From contig NZ_CP119968.1 of the NCBI RefSeq assembly GCF_032163395.1, forward strand, positions 543,501 to 607,500: a DNA stretch of 64,000 nucleotides. The letters run 5' to 3'. The DNA is from Gloeocapsopsis dulcis. GTDB taxonomy: Bacteria; Cyanobacteriota; Cyanobacteriia; Cyanobacteriales; Chroococcidiopsidaceae. Position numbers and translations under genes: made by a program. Position 1 is the first letter of the stretch, and each line of letters starts with the position of its first letter. Positions 50,248 through 58,343 of this stretch are shown piece after piece. The notes beneath the pieces are model-generated. The model ran no database searches and had not been told where the DNA came from. It saw only the letters and a list, made by a program, of their open reading frames with translations.

Positions 50248-51885
50248 TTACACAATACAATTCAAATCACCTGACCGTTGCGTAAACCGATAGTTTTCTT
50301 GATAGTCAACTGGACAATCAATCACTGTAGGTACATCCTGAGCTAAAGCTGTTTTCAAAATAGGAATAAAATCGGTTGTTGATTCAACACGATAGCCTTT
50401 TAGTCCCATACTTTCAGCTAATTTCACAAAATCAGGATTACCAAAATGGACAAAAGAAGATGTTCCAAACTGGTTACGTTGCTTCCACTCAATTAAGCCA
50501 TAACCGCCATCATTAAAAATTAACGTAACGAATGGCGTACCAACCCGCAATGCAGTTTCTAATTCCTGGCAATTCATCATAAAACCGCCATCACCAGTTG
50601 CAGCAACAACTTTCCGGTTAGGATAAACTAATTTTGCCGCTACTGCCCCAGGAATGGCAATTCCCATTGCGGCAAAGCCATTAGAAATTAAACAAGTATT
50701 TGGGCGATCGCAATGATAATGTCGGGCAATCCACATTTTATGCGCTCCGACATCAGAAATCACAATATCTTCAGGTCCCATTACCTGTCGCAAGTCATAA
50801 ATCAGTTTTTGTGGTTTAATGGGAAACCCATCATCAGTAGCATATTGCTCATAATCTGCGCGAATATCTGAGCGTAATTCCAAAGCATAAGGATCGGGCT
50901 GTTCGTCGCGATCTGCTCTTTTTAAAATTTCGTATAACGAATCCGAAATATCACCAACAACTTCAACAACAGGAATATAACTACTATCAATTTCTGAGGG
51001 AGTTTCTCCAATATGAATAATGGGAATTTTACCATCAGGATTCCATTTTTTTGGGGAATACTCAATTAAGTCATAACCAATTGCAATAACTAAATCAGTA
51101 TTATCAAAACCACAATTAATATAATCGCGTTGTTGCAATCCAACTGACCATAAAGCCAATGGATGTTTATAAGGAATCACACCTTTTCCCATAAATGTAT
51201 TGGCAACAGGAATATTCAGTTGTGTTGCAAATTCAGTTACAGCTTCACTCGCATCTGCCCGAATTGCCCCATTACCAACAAGAATAATTGGGTTCTTGGC
51301 TTGTGAAATCACGGTTGCTGCTTCAGTAATGCTGTGAAACGCCGCATACGTCCTTTCTAACTTATCGGTTTTTAAAGGATTACCTGTAGCGGACATTGCG
51401 GCAATATTTTCGGGTAAATCAATATGAACCGCACCAGGTTTTTCACTTTGCGATCGCTTAAAAGCTTTTCTGACAATTTCTGGGGTATTACTAGGACGGA
51501 CAATTTGAGTATTCCACTTTGTCACAGGAGCAAACATTGCCACCAAATCTAAATACTGGTGGGCTTCGATGTGCATTTGATCTGTTCCCACTTGTCCGGT
51601 AATTGCTACTAATGGCGCACCGTCTAAGTTTGCATCGGCGACTCCAGTCATCAGATTTGTCGCCCCAGGACCTAATGTCGAAAGACACACCCCCGCTTTT
51701 CCCGTTAGGCGTCCGTAGACGTCTGCCATGAACGCTGCACCTTGTTCGTGCCGCGTGGTAATAAATTGAATCGAAGAATTTTTGAGTGCTTCAAGGACGT
51801 GTAAATTTTCTTCTCCTGGCAAGCCAAAAACGTAGCGCACGCCTTCATTTTCTAGGCATTGCACTAATAATTCTGCTGTGTTCAT
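50248..51885 (-). CDS. Thiamine-diphosphate decarboxylase: 2-oxoglutarate decarboxylase of the cyanobacterial TCA cycle
   Basis: A 545-residue ThDP-dependent enzyme. FGLPGEENLHVLEALK, the catalytic glutamate in TTRHEQGAAFMADVYGR, and the metal/ThDP loop GDGGFMMNCQELETALRVG...FND are all present. By general sequence it would be called acetolactate synthase large subunit. However, the partner gene is a succinic-semialdehyde dehydrogenase, the arrangement found in Synechococcus PCC 7002 (A2770/A2771), where this protein decarboxylates 2-oxoglutarate to succinic semialdehyde. I therefore favour 2-oxoglutarate decarboxylase. AAGGAGG lies upstream of the ATG. Second gene of the operon. Confidence 0.82.
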   Translation of the reverse strand: MNTAELLVQCLENEGVRYVFGLPGEENLHVLEALKNSSIQFITTRHEQGAAFMADVYGRLTGKAGVCLSTLGPGATNLMTGVADANLDGAPLVAITGQVGTDQMHIEAHQYLDLVAMFAPVTKWNTQIVRPSNTPEIVRKAFKRSQSEKPGAVHIDLPENIAAMSATGNPLKTDKLERTYAAFHSITEAATVISQAKNPIILVGNGAIRADASEAVTEFATQLNIPVANTFMGKGVIPYKHPLALWSVGLQQRDYINCGFDNTDLVIAIGYDLIEYSPKKWNPDGKIPIIHIGETPSEIDSSYIPVVEVVGDISDSLYEILKRADRDEQPDPYALELRSDIRADYEQYATDDGFPIKPQKLIYDLRQVMGPEDIVISDVGAHKMWIARHYHCDRPNTCLISNGFAAMGIAIPGAVAAKLVYPNRKVVAATGDGGFMMNCQELETALRVGTPFVTLIFNDGGYGLIEWKQRNQFGTSSFVHFGNPDFVKLAESMGLKGYRVESTTDFIPILKTALAQDVPTVIDCPVDYQENYRFTQRSGDLNCIV

Positions 51886-51924
51886 GGAAATTTCCTCCTT
51901 AACAGGTATGGCACTGCCATACCT

Positions 51925-53289
51925 CTACTTCACCCACACTGTTTTAACATTGACGAACTCATGTATGCCTTGAATTCCTAATTCCCTGCCATAGCCAGAA
52001 CGCTTAATTCCGCCAAAAGGCATACGCGGATCAGATTTAACTAAACCGTTGATGAAAACTGCTCCAGCTTCTAGTTCTGAAATTAACCGATCGCGCTGGT
52101 GTTCGTCTGTAGTCCATGCACTTGCACCTAACCCAAAAGGTGTGCTATTCGCTAACTCAATTGCGGCATCGATATCAGGAACGCGAAATAACAGTGCTAC
52201 AGGACCAAAAAATTCTTCGTTGTATGCTGCTGAACCTGCAGGAATCTCACTCAAAATCGTTGGGGGATAGTAGTTTCCATGGCGTGATAATGGTTTGCCA
52301 CCCACTAGCACTTTCGCCCCACTGGCGATGCAATTTTGGACTTGCTGATCTAAATCTTGCAGAATTCCTGGTGTTGCTAATGGTCCAATATTTGTGTTGA
52401 GATCCATCGGATCGCCTACTTTCAGCGCTTGGAACTTTTCTATGAACAGTTTCTCAAATTTGTCAGCGATCGCTTCTTCAACAATGAAGCGTTTGGCAGC
52501 AATACACGATTGACCATTATTAAGCATTCGGGCTGTTGTTGCTGTTTTAGCAGCTGTCTCAATGTCAGCACTTGCTAACACAATAAATGGATCGCTTCCG
52601 CCTAACTCGAGTACTGTTTTTTTGATCTGTTTTCCAGCAGCTACTGCTAAACTTGCGCCTGCGGGTTCGCTTCCCGTTAAAGTTGCTGCTTTGACTCGTT
52701 CATCGGCAATTAACGCGGGTACTTTGTCAGCACCTACTAACAAAGTTTGAAAGACTCCTGTGGGGAAACCCGCTCTTTGGATAATTTCTTGAATTGCTAA
52801 CGCGCATTGCGGTACATTAGAAGCGTGCTTGAGTAAGCCAACGTTGCCTGCCATGAGGGCAGGTGCAGCAAATCGAAAAACCTGCCAAAAGGGAAAATTC
52901 CACGGCATAACTGCTAGAATAATCCCTAATGGTTGATAGCGGATGAAACTGCGACTTGCATCAGTTTTAACGCCGACATCTGTGAGAAAATCCGCTGCGT
53001 GTTCTGCATAGTAACGACATACTAAAGCACACTTTTCAACTTCGGCGATGGCACCTTGTAATGGTTTCCCCATTTCTAGGGTCATTAATTTAGCATATTC
53101 GGCTTTTTGTTGGTCGAGAATATCTGCTGCAGCTTGCATAAAATGCGATCGCTCTGCAATTGATAACCAACGATATTGTGCAAATGCTGTTTGTGCTTGT
53201 TCCAGTTTGGCTGCAATTTCGGCATCGGTCAGCGGCTGAAACGTTTTCAGCGTTTCCCCTGTTGCGGGATTAATTGTAGCGATACCCAT
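51925..53289 (-). CDS. Succinate-semialdehyde dehydrogenase
   Basis: A 454-residue NAD(P)-dependent aldehyde dehydrogenase, slightly short for the family. It oxidises succinic semialdehyde to succinate. Catalytic Cys in NNGQSCIAAKRF, catalytic Glu in LELGGSDPF, and the starting ATINPATGE are seen. Together with the downstream decarboxylase it bypasses 2-oxoglutarate dehydrogenase and succinyl-CoA synthetase, closing the TCA cycle. The gap to the decarboxylase gene is 39 bp with a strong ribosome site, so the two are an operon. Confidence 0.85.
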   Translation of the reverse strand: MGIATINPATGETLKTFQPLTDAEIAAKLEQAQTAFAQYRWLSIAERSHFMQAAADILDQQKAEYAKLMTLEMGKPLQGAIAEVEKCALVCRYYAEHAADFLTDVGVKTDASRSFIRYQPLGIILAVMPWNFPFWQVFRFAAPALMAGNVGLLKHASNVPQCALAIQEIIQRAGFPTGVFQTLLVGADKVPALIADERVKAATLTGSEPAGASLAVAAGKQIKKTVLELGGSDPFIVLASADIETAAKTATTARMLNNGQSCIAAKRFIVEEAIADKFEKLFIEKFQALKVGDPMDLNTNIGPLATPGILQDLDQQVQNCIASGAKVLVGGKPLSRHGNYYPPTILSEIPAGSAAYNEEFFGPVALLFRVPDIDAAIELANSTPFGLGASAWTTDEHQRDRLISELEAGAVFINGLVKSDPRMPFGGIKRSGYGRELGIQGIHEFVNVKTVWVK

Positions 53290-53785
53290 TACCTGACCTC
53301 TTTAATAAATTCATCGCGGGATGTTTTTTTAATTTTGCTCCCGTAATTATTGCTTTTCTTACTTCAATTATCTCTTCTTTTTACAGCTTGAATTATAAAA
53401 ATATCTTGTAAAGGAGTGTTGCACATTTTTAAGTATTTTTGCTTATGAGGTTGCGGACAACTCTGATACCTTGGCGATCGCGGCTGACACAACATATTTT
53501 TTATATGCTTGTGCGGTTGCAAAAAGATTAGAGAAAATGTAATATGTTAAATAATTATTAAATACAGTAACAAGATGTAAAGAAAAAGACTTATGTAATT
53601 ACTAAAAAGTGCTTAAATATACGATTTATCAGAGTTTTGATGTTGCAGTAGAATATATTGAGTTAGTTTACGGTCTTCTCATTTTAGCTATAAGTTTAGT
53701 TTAAACTGAACTTACGAGGACAAAACTATAGAGTCGTGTTAGCTTGTCCCGTTTTTCCTCAACTCATAGCACAGAAGAAAACCTA
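53290..53785. other. Long AT-rich upstream region
   Basis: About 500 bp with no supported gene. It holds the leftward promoter of the TCA operon and the rightward promoter of the first response-regulator cassette. Apart from A/T-rich runs such as TTAAATAATTATTAAAT I see no specific signal. Confidence 0.4.
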
Positions 53786-53850
53786 GTGGGTTAGTTATCT
53801 ACGAGCCAGTCCGCTGTAAGCGCCGTTATTCGCCGCTTGGGGAGTGCCTC
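53786..53850 (+). ncRNA. Structured 5' leader element, copy 1
   Basis: A 65-nt segment that is repeated, with changes, ahead of the paralogous gene at 55163. Shared parts are GTGGRTTA, CGAGCCAGTCC, a hairpin and CTTGGGGA...GCCTC. The hairpin is TAAGCG/CGCTTG here and CAAGTG/CACTTG in copy 2: one wobble pair becomes C-G and one C-G becomes T-A, so pairing is conserved while sequence changes. This is the usual sign of a functional RNA. It lies 63 nt before the chosen start codon. It matches no riboswitch family that I recognise. Confidence 0.6.
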
Positions 53851-53864
53851 AATCTTACATATTG

Positions 53865-53882
53865 TGTGAGGAAGTCCTCACA
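53865..53882 (+). promoter_or_regulatory. Stable hairpin between leader and response-regulator gene
   Basis: TGTGAGG-AAGT-CCTCACA, a perfect 7-bp stem with a tetraloop, lies between the structured leader and the Shine-Dalgarno sequence (GGAG, 53903-53906). The CCTCA at the end of the leader (53847-53851) could instead pair with the TGAGG half of this hairpin, giving two alternative structures. Confidence 0.5.
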
Positions 53883-53913
53883 AATTGAAGACCTTCCTAG
53901 ATGGAGTAGAAAG

Positions 53914-54333
53914 TTGGAAGTACTCTTAGCAAGTAACAAGCAGGCAATTACCCAGCCGCTGATCCTCGCAGTAGATGATGACGAAGATAGCTTACTTTTG
54001 TTGACAGAAGTAGTGAGAGGAAACAATTTTGCATGTATCACAGCACAAAATGGTAAAAGTGCTTTATCATTAGCCCAGCGATACCAACCAGATTTGGTTT
54101 TGCTAGACATACTGCTGCCCGATTTAAATGGCATAGAAGTCGTACATCACTTGAGAAAAAGCCCTCAAACGCAGTTAATTCCTATTATTGCAGTAACAGC
54201 ATTAGCGAAAAAAGAAGATTACCAGCGGATAATGATGGCTGGCTGTGATGGTTACATCACCAAACCTTATATGCTGGACGATCTAGAAAGTGTGATTTTT
54301 AATCATTTGTGCCATACGGTAGCTACAGCGTAG
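53914..54333 (+). CDS. Single-domain (CheY-like) response regulator, copy 1
   Basis: Receiver-domain-only protein. The acidic pocket is AVDDDEDSLLLL, the phospho-accepting Asp is in LVLLDILLPD, the switch Thr in AVTALAKKED, and the conserved Lys in YITKPY. There is no output domain, so it must act on a partner. The frame reaches a GTG at 53866, but that codon sits in the hairpin. GGAG 7 nt before the TTG at 53914 gives a 139-residue protein, nearly the same length as the paralogue at 55163 (137). First gene of a duplicated leader/regulator/DUF2294 cassette. Confidence 0.8.
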   Translation: MEVLLASNKQAITQPLILAVDDDEDSLLLLTEVVRGNNFACITAQNGKSALSLAQRYQPDLVLLDILLPDLNGIEVVHHLRKSPQTQLIPIIAVTALAKKEDYQRIMMAGCDGYITKPYMLDDLESVIFNHLCHTVATA

Positions 54334-54355
54334 CTGGGGCTAAGATAATTTATCT

Positions 54356-54718
54356 CTACTGAGGTTTGGCAGCTAAGACTGCAGTTATACTAGTACGGTC
54401 TGAATCAATATTTGAGGTTCCGATTAAATCTACCACGGGTACTTTAACTACTGCCTCAATGATTGCTTTCAGATGTGGCTCAATAGCTTTGCACAAGTTC
54501 CATCTGACTTCCTCCACTAAATCATGTTTACCACTTTCGATTAAAAGTCGTTCGGGCGGAGTCATTGCGTGTTCAACTAAAATTGTTAAGGTCTTATCTA
54601 ATAAATTGCATATAACCTTTTGTGGTGAGTGCCCCAGCTGACTAGTATATAATGCACGAATCTGTTGTGACAGAGTCTCTTCTAACAAGGTAAAACTAGC
54701 TGGTATTTTTTCCTCCAT
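54356..54718 (-). CDS. DUF2294 (MpsC-like) family protein, copy 1
   Basis: A 120-residue protein of the DUF2294 family. Landmarks are EETLSQQIRALYTSQLGHSPQKVIC, LVEHAMTPPERLLIESGKHDLVEEVRW (in part) and the hydrophobic VVDLIGTSNIDSDRTSITAVL. In staphylococci a related protein, MpsC, belongs to the MpsABC cation/bicarbonate system, but no mpsA or mpsB is in this window. It is convergent with the response-regulator gene, ends 22 bp apart, and the pair is repeated at 55163-56106. Confidence 0.75.
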   Translation of the reverse strand: MEEKIPASFTLLEETLSQQIRALYTSQLGHSPQKVICNLLDKTLTILVEHAMTPPERLLIESGKHDLVEEVRWNLCKAIEPHLKAIIEAVVKVPVVDLIGTSNIDSDRTSITAVLAAKPQ

Positions 54719-55047
54719 AAACTTATCAATAAATCAAGATATATCAATGTACAGAGTACAAAAATAAGCTATCAGGTTCTTTTATCACATTCAAACACTC
54801 TAAAGGCAGATAATTAATTCGAGTGTAGTCATTTGACAATCTATCTGTAGACTGAGAAATTTAAGCACTGTTTCTAAAAACAAAATTAAAATAAAACTAT
54901 AAATTGATGTCAATCCTACCCTAGGAATATTTTTTTTATATCTAAAGATGTATTTATTGATAATAATATTGTAAACTTGAGGAGATCAGAGTTTCTTTGC
55001 TAACTTGCGATGTTCTCTGCTAACCACGAACAAAAATCAACAAATTG
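54719..55047. other. Spacer between the two cassettes
   Basis: A 329-bp AT-rich stretch. It must contain the promoters for the leftward DUF2294 copy 1 and the rightward leader/regulator copy 2. No gene or obvious hairpin was found. Confidence 0.4.
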
Positions 55048-55110
55048 GTGGATTAACTGCGAGCCAGTCCACTGCAAGTGCTGTCGTCTACACCACTTGG
55101 GGAAAGCCTC
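55048..55110 (+). ncRNA. Structured 5' leader element, copy 2
   Basis: The second copy of the leader motif, 63 nt, ending 52 nt before the start codon of the second response regulator. It has GTGGATTAACT, GCGAGCCAGTCCACTG, the CAAGTG/CACTTG hairpin and CTTGGGGAAAGCCTC. GTGG at its start can also pair with CCAC in the middle. The region just downstream carries a HIP1 palindrome and AAGCG/CGCTT, but no hairpin as clear as in copy 1. Confidence 0.6.
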
Positions 55111-55162
55111 GTTCAAGCGATCGCATAAATTGGTTATACGCTTTTGCGACTTTTTCTAAGCT

Positions 55163-55576
55163 ATGAATATGAATTTGCAAAGTTCTAATAGTCCTTATCA
55201 AGATAGGCTTAGACAACCTTTAGTTTTAGCTGTAGACGATAATGAAGACAACTTACAGCTATTGGCTCAACTACTAGTGTTGCTTGAATGTTCTCACATC
55301 ACTGCAACTGATGGTCATACAGCAGTACTTATGGCGCAAAATTATCAACCAAATTTAATTTTGTTAGATATGATGCTGCCAGATTTAGATGGAATTGAGG
55401 TTGTCTCTCGCTTAAAACAAGATCCAGAAACAATGGATATCCCTATCATTGCTGTAACTGCCATGGCAAGATTAGAAGATCAGCAACGGTTTTTGCTAGC
55501 AGGATGTAAGGAATATATAAAAAAACCATACATTATCGAAGAGTTAGAAGCAACAATTCGCCGCTGTCTTGCTTAA
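55163..55576 (+). CDS. Single-domain (CheY-like) response regulator, copy 2
   Basis: A 137-residue receiver-only protein, clearly paralogous to copy 1 (about half of the residues identical by eye, for example AVDDNEDNL, LLDMMLPDLDGIEVV, IPIIAVTAMARLED, AGCKEYIKKPY). Phospho-acceptor Asp69, switch Thr and Lys are present. No output domain. It is preceded by the same structured leader and followed by a convergent DUF2294 gene. Confidence 0.85.
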   Translation: MNMNLQSSNSPYQDRLRQPLVLAVDDNEDNLQLLAQLLVLLECSHITATDGHTAVLMAQNYQPNLILLDMMLPDLDGIEVVSRLKQDPETMDIPIIAVTAMARLEDQQRFLLAGCKEYIKKPYIIEELEATIRRCLA

Positions 55577-55722
55577 TTTTTCTAATATCAAGATTGAGTT
55601 AAGGACTCACAATTAGAGTAGCTAGTGATTAGTAACTAGTAATTCAACTAAAGATGATGTAACAACAAGAAGCTAAAGATCTAATTTCAAACAACAAATT
55701 AAATATTTCAGATATCAGCGGT

Positions 55723-56106
55723 TCAAGCCATATTTCGGAACTTTGGTGTTTCTGCCAAAATAGCTATAGTGGCAGTACGACCTGTATCCAGTTTTGCGTT
55801 ACTCAATAAATCTATTACATTGACTCCCACAATTTCCTCTATAATTGATTTAATTTGCGGTTTTAATGCCTCATCAATCTCAGAACGTACTTCTTGGGCT
55901 AGCTCTTCTTGACCAGTACTAACTAGAAGTTGCTCAGGTTGCGTAATCGAATCTTCTAAAATAATTGCGACTTTTTCGTCAAAAATCTGACAAGATATTC
56001 GGCTTGGTTGATGTTCCAATTGATGACGATATAAAGCTTGAATTCGCTGTGACAAAGTACGTTCAATTTGCCCACGCGTAGGAATAGAAGAATCCATGGT
56101 TATCAA
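55723..56106 (-). CDS. DUF2294 (MpsC-like) family protein, copy 2
   Basis: A 127-residue paralogue of the protein at 54356. It shares TLSQRIQALYRHQLEHQPSR, the LEDSITQPEQLLVSTGQEELAQEVR block (in part), GVNVIDLLSNAKLDTGRTATIAIL and the same length and topology. The ends of this gene and the second response-regulator gene face each other across 146 bp. Met4 is an alternative start. The duplicate arrangement argues that DUF2294 protein and regulator work together. Confidence 0.77.
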   Translation of the reverse strand: MITMDSSIPTRGQIERTLSQRIQALYRHQLEHQPSRISCQIFDEKVAIILEDSITQPEQLLVSTGQEELAQEVRSEIDEALKPQIKSIIEEIVGVNVIDLLSNAKLDTGRTATIAILAETPKFRNMA

Positions 56107-56232
56107 ATGAAGAAAGAAGTTAATTGAATAAAAAATCTGCCCACAGGGGGTCGATATTACCTAATAAGATAATCGCACAAATTCAACTATACTCCTAATG
56201 GTAGAGCTTTGGGTGAAAAATTAGTGTAATAC

Positions 56233-57291
56233 TTAGTAATCAGGTGAGGGATAAATCAAGATCTTGTAAGTTTCTTGAGTAGGAGCGATCGCGCGTTCTA
56301 CTGCTGCAGATAACTCGTGTAAAGGGTAGCGATCGCTAATCAGGGTTTCTACGTTAATTCGGTGATTGAAAACAATATCCGCAGCCAGACTTTGCAACCG
56401 AAACGAAGAACTGTAGCTACCGATCAAATCGATTTCACGACGGTAAAGAACATTAGGGTTAAGTGGAATTTCGACTTCATCGGGAAACTCTGCAAAAAAT
56501 AAAATCTTACCACCTTTGCGCGTACAGTTTAAGGCTTGAAAAAAGGCTTTATCGCTAGGAACTGCAAGTAATGTCGTATCAACCCCCATGCCATTTGTCA
56601 TTGCGTGAATCTTGGCTACTAATTCTGCATCCCGCGCATCAAACGCTGCTTCTGCACCAACACTCAAAGCTTTGGCAATTCTGGAAGGAAGTAAATCGGT
56701 AGCGATCGCTCTTGCACCAAAATATTTCACCAACATAATAAACATTAACCCAATTGGTCCTGCACCTGTCACTAATACAGTTTGTCCTGGTGCAATTTGG
56801 GCTTTTTTCACGGCTTTAAGACAACAATTCGTCGGTTCGACAAAACTTGCTATTTCAAAACTCACATCGTCTGGAATCGAGATTAACCCACCGTTACGGA
56901 CAATATGACTAGGAACCTTAACAAACTCTGCAAAACCACCGCCGCTGGGTGCAAATCCAGCCGTTGTGCAGATATTCTTGTACACATCACACATTGAGAA
57001 ATTGTCATTGAGACAGTAGCCACAGCGCATACAAGGAATGTGGTGCATCACAACCACGCGATCGCCAACTTGCCAGTTTTTAACATCTTCTCCAACTGCT
57101 GCAATTACTCCTGCTGTTTCATGTCCAAAAATTCGCGGTGGTTCGTATAAAGGATAGAGAATCTTTTTGATATCCGACTGACACAAGCCCACAACACGCA
57201 CTTGTACCAATACCTCATCAGCTTCTAGAGTAGGTACTGGCAATTCCTCATAACTTAGCTGCTTAACGCCGCGATATACCTGTGCTTTCAT
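56233..57291 (-). CDS. Zinc-dependent alcohol/polyol dehydrogenase (MDR superfamily)
   Basis: A 352-residue medium-chain dehydrogenase. Catalytic zinc region VGLCQSDIKK and GHETAG; structural zinc cysteines in CMRCGYCLNDNFSMC; NAD-binding VTGAGPIGLMF. It resembles the threonine/sorbitol dehydrogenase branch. Substrate unclear. The gene begins 57 bp after a degraded PIN gene on the same strand and probably uses its own promoter. Confidence 0.85.
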   Translation of the reverse strand: MKAQVYRGVKQLSYEELPVPTLEADEVLVQVRVVGLCQSDIKKILYPLYEPPRIFGHETAGVIAAVGEDVKNWQVGDRVVVMHHIPCMRCGYCLNDNFSMCDVYKNICTTAGFAPSGGGFAEFVKVPSHIVRNGGLISIPDDVSFEIASFVEPTNCCLKAVKKAQIAPGQTVLVTGAGPIGLMFIMLVKYFGARAIATDLLPSRIAKALSVGAEAAFDARDAELVAKIHAMTNGMGVDTTLLAVPSDKAFFQALNCTRKGGKILFFAEFPDEVEIPLNPNVLYRREIDLIGSYSSSFRLQSLAADIVFNHRINVETLISDRYPLHELSAAVERAIAPTQETYKILIYPSPDY

Positions 57292-57347: not shown

Positions 57348-57916
57348 TCAATCAATACTTTGTAGTGTTAATTGCACTTGGCTAACAAATTCAGGTACTT
57401 GCTTGTTTAGCTTCGTCAGAAGTTCATCAACACTAACTGGCGGATTCTTCAAATCTTGAGATTGCTGCTGAATAAGCTGAAGCATCAACGCTGGAAATTG
57501 CTTTTGTAGATTTGTGAGAAACACATCTGGGTGTTGAGCTTCAATACCAAAAGGAGCAAGTATCTCTTGTGGAAAGTGCTTGAGATTTGTAGTTACAATT
57601 ATCTTAACTTTAGCAACCATAGCAGCAGCGACAACATGACGATCATTTGGATGATTTGTCATTACTGCAACTAGTTCATCAGGTACTTCCACAATTGCTT
57701 CAGGAAAATGTGATTTGATCATTGCCTGATAGCGTACTGCCTTACTATCGGTCATTCTTCCTTTGTTTACAAGGTTACGAGTTGCACCATCAAGAATTTC
57801 TTGGGAAAGTTGACTTGATACAATTCAACTTCAGCAGCACGTAGTAGAGTATCGCATAAAGGCATAGGAAATAGTACGCAAGAGTCCAGAATAACGGAAA
57901 TTGGTATTCTATTCAG
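57348..57916 (-). pseudogene. Decayed PIN-domain toxin gene (frameshift and lost start)
   Basis: Read on the minus strand, frame one gives VILDSCVLFPMPLCDTLLRA through EVELYQV, which is a PIN-domain N-terminus with the first catalytic Asp. After about 57812 the protein continues only in another frame: LSQEILDGATRNLVNKGRM then TDSKAVRYQAM and VVAAAMVAKVKIIVTTN. A single base is probably missing at about 57810-57818. The position expected for ATG (by overlap with the antitoxin stop) reads CTG. The longest intact frame covers only 57348-57755. PIN toxins are Mg-dependent RNases. The partner antitoxin-like gene upstream is intact. Confidence 0.75.
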
Positions 57917-58343
57917 GTTTACCTATCTCTTCGTTATAGAATCCCTCTTCTTGTAGAAATTGAGTGAGTTCTTTCATTGCTTTCCTGCGTTTCCTATCTC
58001 GTTGTTCCTTATATTGCATTAAATCTTGGAAACGTACCCGACGATGCGTTCCTACTTTGATATGTGGGATTTCTCCTTGTTCTAATAGTTTGATTAAATA
58101 TGGGCGGGAAACATTGAGCAGATCTGCAGCTTGTTGTGTTGTCAATTCTTGATCTTGAGACACTACAGTGATCGATTGCCCTGCTTTGATCGCTTGCACA
58201 ACTTGATGCAATACTTGATAAATCGATTCGGAAATGAGAGTTGCTTCTCCATCACTACCTACGAGCTTTGCGCTGGAACCTTCAGTGTCATTTAACTGCT
58301 GAGAATGTACAATTACATCTCTTTGGGCGTTGTGGCTTAACAT
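57909..58343 (-). CDS. Excisionase/HTH-type antitoxin of a PIN toxin pair
   Basis: A 144-residue protein. The C-terminal half is a MerR-like excisionase helix-turn-helix (LTTQQAADLLNVSRPYLIKLLEQGEIPHIKVGTHRRVRFQDLMQY, in part), and the N-terminal half (HSQQLNDTEGSSAKLVGSDG ... ISESIYQVLHQVVQAIKAG) resembles an antitoxin N-terminus. It should bind its own promoter and neutralise the PIN toxin encoded next. Its stop overlaps the former toxin start. The toxin is broken, so the antitoxin may now act alone as a regulator. Confidence 0.8.
   Translation of the reverse strand: MLSHNAQRDVIVHSQQLNDTEGSSAKLVGSDGEATLISESIYQVLHQVVQAIKAGQSITVVSQDQELTTQQAADLLNVSRPYLIKLLEQGEIPHIKVGTHRRVRFQDLMQYKEQRDRKRRKAMKELTQFLQEEGFYNEEIGKPE

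Follow-up and report, generated by a model that had tools for sequence, protein, structure and literature searches.

A conserved structured leader upstream of receiver-only response regulator genes in cyanobacteria, usually with a convergent PF10057 gene

The window studied here, a 64,000-nt stretch of the Gloeocapsopsis dulcis genome (contig NZ_CP119968.1, positions 543,501 to 607,500), contains two tandem units, each of which consists of a leader, a gene encoding a receiver-only response regulator, and a convergent gene encoding a PF10057 protein (MpsC, formerly DUF2294) (Table 1). The two units are flanked by an aldehyde dehydrogenase gene and a zinc alcohol dehydrogenase gene. A sequence-only reading of this DNA had proposed that the order of leader, receiver gene, and opposite-strand DUF2294 gene occurs twice in tandem, with protein copies diverged to roughly half identity and a leader core that remained alike. 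All of this was borne out: matches to our covariance model R2, to PF00072, and to PF10057 place both copies, and “roughly half” is correct, with identity at 54% for the receivers (117 aa) and 41% for the PF10057 proteins (109 aa). The leader core forms a direct repeat, 81% alike over 32 nt between the copies. A 22-nt core pattern, allowing up to 3 mismatches, had four matches genome-wide; the window copies showed 0 and 1 mismatch, the other two 3. With E up to 10, R2 matched only the two P2 hairpins in the window, both of which belong to its training set. The leader is longer than was first marked, as a second hairpin lies upstream, starting at about 53736 and about 55016. One of the proteins in the window is 95% identical to its counterpart in G. 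crepidinum LEGE 06123.

Table 1. Features of the two tandem units, with positions counted from the first letter of the window.
Feature	Position	Strand	Evidence and remarks
Leader 1, upstream hairpin P1	53736..53789	+	Inferred by hand from the sequence and the motif of relatives
Leader 1, P1 arms: 5' GTGTTAG-CTTG, 3' AAAC-CTAGTGG	53736..53789	+	Cross-species arm test; RNAalifold, on a set largely picked for pairing in which leader 1 is misaligned
Leader 1, conserved hairpin P2	53798..53853	+	R2, 67.0 bits (training-set member); covariation
Receiver-only response regulator 1	53914..54333	+	PF00072, E 1.1e-24; start probably TTG 53914, judged from relatives (longest ORF from GTG 53866)
PF10057 (MpsC, formerly DUF2294) protein 1, convergent	54356..54718	-	99.7 bits, cut-off 23
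Leader 2, upstream hairpin, arms TCTGCTAA / TTGGTGGA	55016..55052	+	Inferred by hand
Leader 2, conserved hairpin P2	55056..55113	+	R2, 67.8 bits (training-set member); covariation
Receiver-only response regulator 2	55163..55576	+	PF00072, E 2.9e-23
PF10057 protein 2, convergent	55723..56106	-	129 bits, cut-off 23; start TTG 56106 or ATG 56097

Divergent from leader 1, positions 50248-53289 of the minus strand encode a TPP enzyme, which carries the NCBIfam name acetolactate synthase, followed by the aldehyde dehydrogenase. The latter is nearest to the NADP-type succinic semialdehyde dehydrogenase, with a score of 684 bits that lies below the cut-off of 730 for that model. This gene pair may represent the OgdA/SsaD bypass in the TCA cycle of cyanobacteria (PMC5160925). 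On the other side, also on the minus strand, a gene encoding a PIN-like protein, whose score of 71 bits is below the NCBIfam cut-off (170), lies beside one encoding an excisionase-type HTH protein (57348-58343), and the two look like a toxin-antitoxin pair.

The case for a structure in the leader is comparative: single-sequence folds were unimpressive, and the covariation lies far beyond chance. Thermodynamic folding of the single copies was ordinary, with z-scores of -1.76 and 0.40 for the two cores. A first model, R1, was built from 16 distinct leaders aligned from pattern matches in relatives, and the second, R2, from 52 matches. Statistics for P2 were taken from 122 R2 matches in 100 stretches (118 distinct sequences), in an alignment fitted to the model. 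Across these 118 sequences, 92.1% of the cells were paired, and both-side changes occurred in 13 of the 16 pairs. The observed values were reached by none of 500 shuffles, and slid controls paired in 32-58%. The first MAFFT alignment of 16 sequences gave 96.9% paired cells, both-side changes in 5 of 16 pairs, and 38-48% for its slid versions. The earlier view of the leader as a structured element is therefore supported. No family of Rfam (release 15) matched the window at its gathering score, and a search of 53600-55200 with E up to 10 returned only two snoRNA matches off the leaders, which were taken as chance. Six pattern matches with 2-3 mismatches (L003, L004, L021, L022, L024, and L025) had none of the genes, and were regarded as chance and dropped before model building; eight viral contigs that matched a leader pattern likewise did not score as leaders (best E 0.15).

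Within P2, C·C mismatches are near-invariant at two sites (109/118 and 106/118 sequences), and a third site has a purine opposite a purine in 102/118. P2 has an asymmetric internal loop, and G-U pairs are among its compensatory changes. The loop of P2 admits long insertions, with a model match of 192 nt in L199. Insertions of about 50 to 140 nt were seen in this copy (L199:521-712, genome G049) and in L167, L183, and L195, all belonging to family f32. The copy at L199:521-712 had been excluded from the first alignment (A2, as L005) because the loop insertion hid its 3' strand; R2 later matched it, and it is not counted among the 136 leaders described below. In the minimum-energy fold of leader 2, the upstream GGUGGAUU (55016-55052) pairs with the 5' strand of P2 (55061-55075), which is a possible alternative state of that copy. 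Pairing of the 3' strand of P2 with the stretch downstream exceeded its 40 shuffles in an alternative-helix test that failed its positive control.

The upstream hairpin, P1, is laid out as six variable bases, CUUG, a loop, CAAC, and another six variable bases. In a cross-species test on 37 distinct arm pairs, chosen by motif position and not by pairing, the arms matched at 3.86 of 6 positions within sequences versus 3.23 across sequences (sd 0.15), a score that none of 2000 shuffles equaled (highest 3.73). Both strict P1 motifs are present in just 42 of 116 distinct upstream stretches. RNAalifold, when given no structure, recovered P1 in 31 leaders (alignment A5) and missed P2, which we attribute to gappy loops. 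As A5 was mostly selected for P1 pairing (it comprises 27 of the 31 best-scoring leaders, two picked by eye, and the two window copies), the P1 counts that it gives are biased. Motif counts in 120 distinct upstream stretches were 52 for [AG]CTTG, 39 for CAAC[CT], and 22 for TTTCC...GCA[AT]AG, against shuffled means of 10, 6.6, and 0.1, respectively, where the shuffles preserve base content only and the related sequences are not independent. A -10-like box was seen by eye upstream of P1. The upstream hairpin of leader 2 is remodelled relative to the other P1 hairpins, and its arms covary with those of two relatives (G004 and G010; loci L015 and L013).

A strictly filtered R1 search of 386 genomes across the phylum, which will have lost some places, gave 20 places. 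These lie in 16 genomes, 14 of which belong to the same order as G. dulcis. The covariance-model search of cyanobacterial genomes that the sequence-only reading had called for was run with R2, blind to gene position, on 388 genomes of the order; it yielded 130 places, spread over 99 of them. These places, five more leaders (in G081, G332, G210, G164, and G341), and a second one in G032 make up a set of 136 leaders in 104 genomes. Directly downstream of every one of the 136, on the same strand, lies a receiver gene of one family, and none of the leaders in this set lies away from a receiver. The end of the leader is separated from the receiver domain by a median of 98 nt (10-90%: 72-129, n = 122). 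In one scan, three of 122 receivers were fragmentary, one being apparently frame-broken (G011) and two cut by the end of the locus; the receiver of G002, cut in one scan, is whole in L030. The conserved, structured leader lies on the receiver strand at a near-fixed distance from the receiver, and its position and orientation upstream of one gene class are constant (136/136).

Leaders also occur outside tandem pairs. In many near relatives, the block between the aldehyde dehydrogenase and alcohol dehydrogenase genes is conserved as a whole. The unit is also retained between other flanking genes, at two unlinked loci of G007, and in other orders of the class (G081 and G332). Two MAG records titled Tatlockia sp. 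MGR_bin123 (L112 and L130) contain PF10057 genes 77% and 45% identical to those of the window; L112 has the whole cyanobacterial unit, and the record is probably mistitled or a mixed bin.

A convergent PF10057 gene was found at 121 of the 136 leaders: 105 in one scan, two that were cut in that scan and seen in L030 and L115 (the latter taken as the same contig from its length), and 14 further ones. In 61 of 105 pairs, the convergent receiver and PF10057 genes have overlapping ends. Among the 15 leaders without such a gene, two are cut by contig ends (G574 and G537), and four are second tandem copies of which the first copy has PF10057 (G527, G487, G433, and G032). Three genomes, reported as 100, 96, and 99% complete (G084, G615, and G537), have the leader and the receiver and no PF10057 match anywhere. 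As leader-receiver loci can lack PF10057, and three genomes are without any match, PF10057 is not indispensable.

Viewed from the side of PF10057, the phylum sample contained 41 PF10057 places in 31 of 386 genomes, and 31 of these places had a convergent receiver-only gene. A leader match is carried by 25 of the 31 pairs, with five of the 25 being weak (R2 E 2e-8 to 0.003). Five pairs had no leader match (G137, G166, G252, G325, and G021, the last with a visible remnant), and in G213 the PF10057 gene lies beside a more distant receiver, again with no leader match. One of the 41 places was a tandem second copy, and none of the nine places without such a receiver had a leader match. When 21 named loci were retrieved through the PF10057 protein alone, the 17 that contained the receiver were the same 17 that contained the leader. 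Given the three genomes without PF10057 and the nine PF10057 places without a leader, the leader goes with the receiver and not with PF10057: it is bound to the receiver, and PF10057 is a usual, not obligate, companion. With a receiver at 136/136 leaders, a convergent PF10057 gene at 121/136, and a leader at 25/31 PF10057-receiver pairs, most homologous loci have retained all parts, in agreement with the proposal that the three form one unit and do not lie together by coincidence.

Both receivers in the window contain PF00072 only. Throughout the receiver family, the residues required for phosphorylation are kept (D in 110/117, T in 115/117, and K in 116/117), suggesting that most of these receivers can be phosphorylated. 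In a receiver tree, copies from several genera that lie on the alcohol dehydrogenase side group together in one clade (12 rows, 98/93), separate from those on the other side, so that the duplication looks older than these genera; the deep forks of the tree are weakly placed.

We know of no settled function for PF10057 proteins. An AlphaFold2 model of PF10057 protein 2 (mean pLDDT 90.2) consists of a helix, two strands, two helices, and two strands. A Foldseek search with this model returned no significant structural relative (best E 0.011); the list of weak matches was full of large-subunit ribosomal chains, presumably L23, none of them significant. A phmmer search against solved structures gave as its best match 48 residues of a “circular tendon repeat protein” (E 1.7e-05), which was taken as spurious. 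The family is acidic, with a median pI of 4.76 over 103 domain sequences, and a search of a plasmid collection with one PF10057 protein gave no match at E 1e-5. In staphylococci, mpsC is dispensable for MpsAB activity and its deletion gave no growth defect, while outside staphylococci it is not collocated with mpsAB according to the authors (PMC6689103). For these reasons, the Pfam name MpsC gives no function here, and should not be taken to mean bicarbonate transport.

The sequence-only reading had also noted that no histidine kinase lies beside the unit. This holds for the window, where no kinase gene adjoins the unit, but not for all relatives: of 140 loci scanned (some of them overlapping, and one the query's own), 9 have in the vicinity of the unit the gene for a REC-HisKA-HATPase kinase with an identity of 53% or more to that of Iningainema. 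This count is a lower bound because the lengths of the flanks differ. The best match to this kinase in the present genome (G000:C1:1027355-1028440) is 62% identical and lies about 0.43 Mb from the unit. Among 60 relatives searched at E 1e-85, the kinase was present in 29/29 genomes with an R2 leader versus 16/31 others. A relative of the kinase is widespread (45/60), and its co-occurrence with the leader could be explained by relatedness. We infer the assignment of this kinase to the receiver from few loci. In L208, which belongs to one of the genomes without a PF10057 match (G084), a REC-HK gene directly faces the leader and receiver in convergent orientation. Where PF10057 genes occur without this receiver, two-component kinases or regulators were found in the same 5-kb stretch at 4 of 8 loci; these comprise hybrid or PAS kinases and NarL- or OmpR-type regulators (L084, L095, L099, and L101).

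Several other explanations of the leader were weighed. The confinement of the leader to sites upstream of the receiver gene would also be expected of a DNA element such as an operator or inverted repeat. The G-U pairs among the compensatory changes, the asymmetric internal loop with its retained R·R and C·C mismatches, the tolerance of the P2 loop for long insertions (the 192-nt match), and the fact that the leader is always on the receiver strand speak against this, however, and make it highly improbable. Self-contained tandem hairpins would suit an RNA that is cut from the mRNA and acts in trans as a small RNA, but in 136/136 cases the leader stays with the receiver, at a near-constant spacing, and we regard this possibility as improbable. 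It is likewise with little confidence that we consider the leader an autoregulatory binding site through which the PF10057 protein would repress or activate translation of the receiver, in the way of a ribosomal-protein leader. While the presence of PF10057 at 121 of the 136 leaders and the ribosomal chains in the Foldseek list (none significant, best E 0.011) are in line with such a role, it is disfavoured by the persistence of leader and receiver in the three genomes without a PF10057 match and by the acidic nature of the family; the lack of leader matches at the nine PF10057 places without this receiver argues against it as well.

A further explanation concerns the PF10057 gene and not the leader: the leader may regulate the receiver, with PF10057 being unrelated to the receiver and adjacent to it through chance synteny. 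The 15 leaders at which PF10057 is missing (two of them cut by contig ends) and the conservation of the whole dehydrogenase-flanked block in many near relatives would be consistent with this. Yet the pair persists with other flanks, at the two unlinked loci of G007 and in other orders, and at 4 of 8 PF10057 loci that lack this receiver, other two-component genes lie in the same stretch, which renders chance synteny rather unlikely. Most likely, the leader is an undescribed cis-regulatory RNA of a phosphorylatable receiver, with the PF10057 protein as its probable partner; for the cis-regulatory role of the leader itself, we estimate a probability of about 90%.

In the mechanism that we propose, the leader would be transcribed as a structured 5' RNA (P1 and P2) in the receiver mRNA and would set the amount of receiver, probably at the level of translation and in response to a signal or factor read by the RNA. 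A scan of 53200-56400 detected no terminator-like site, against 1.7 that chance would give; this is mild evidence for translation. The receiver would be phosphorylated by a kinase usually encoded elsewhere, for which the best candidate is the REC-HisKA-HATPase kinase encoded near the unit in some relatives. It may then act by binding another protein, most likely the convergent PF10057 product, as a predicted contact. We lean towards the view that the receiver and the PF10057 protein are a working pair, while the full chain, from leader RNA through receiver level and phosphorylation by the kinase to contact with PF10057, has about even odds. A more speculative, and on balance doubtful, extension is that the two tandem hairpins represent a new, signal-sensing class of leader RNA that determines how much phosphorylatable receiver is present and in this way couples an intracellular cue to two-component signalling via PF10057. 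In this signal-sensing reading, both hairpins would bear two near-invariant C·C mismatches (of which the two in P2 were counted and those in P1 were read by eye), and these would serve for recognition of a ligand, of a protein, or, in the form of protonated C·C+, of pH.

The receivers of the window resemble single-domain receivers of the CheY/DivK type (PF00072), as they consist of a receiver only, with canonical D/T/K residues; they differ from these by their structured leader and, usually, a convergent PF10057 gene. The PF10057 proteins of the window are clear members of the MpsC family by its curated cut-off. Dual-hairpin targets are a feature of ANTAR-type response regulators, and the present unit is alike in that two tandem leader hairpins are tied to two-component signalling. 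Both window receivers, however, lack an ANTAR domain, with PF00072 being the only domain found. Among cyanobacterial orphan riboswitch-like leaders, glnA, Downstream-peptide, psaA, and PhotoRC are likewise conserved structured 5' leaders of one gene class (PMC2864571), whereas the leader in the window matches no Rfam model. In the open-licence literature, no paper was found on DUF2294 together with cyanobacteria, and DUF2294 alone returned only fungal secretome work; titles and the first parts of abstracts in that literature likewise yielded no publication on a unit of leader, receiver, and PF10057.

The leader constitutes an RNA family that is absent from Rfam and has a single, fixed target gene. 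About one in four of the genomes sampled from the order contain this leader (99/388). To our knowledge, few leader RNAs control response regulators. The strict link between leader and receiver, together with the retained internal mismatches, makes searches for a ligand or protein directly feasible. If the signal-sensing reading is true, it would provide a first role for the little-studied PF10057 family, as partner of a receiver. The combination of leader, receiver, and PF10057 protein points to an RNA-controlled signalling unit that has hitherto been unstudied.
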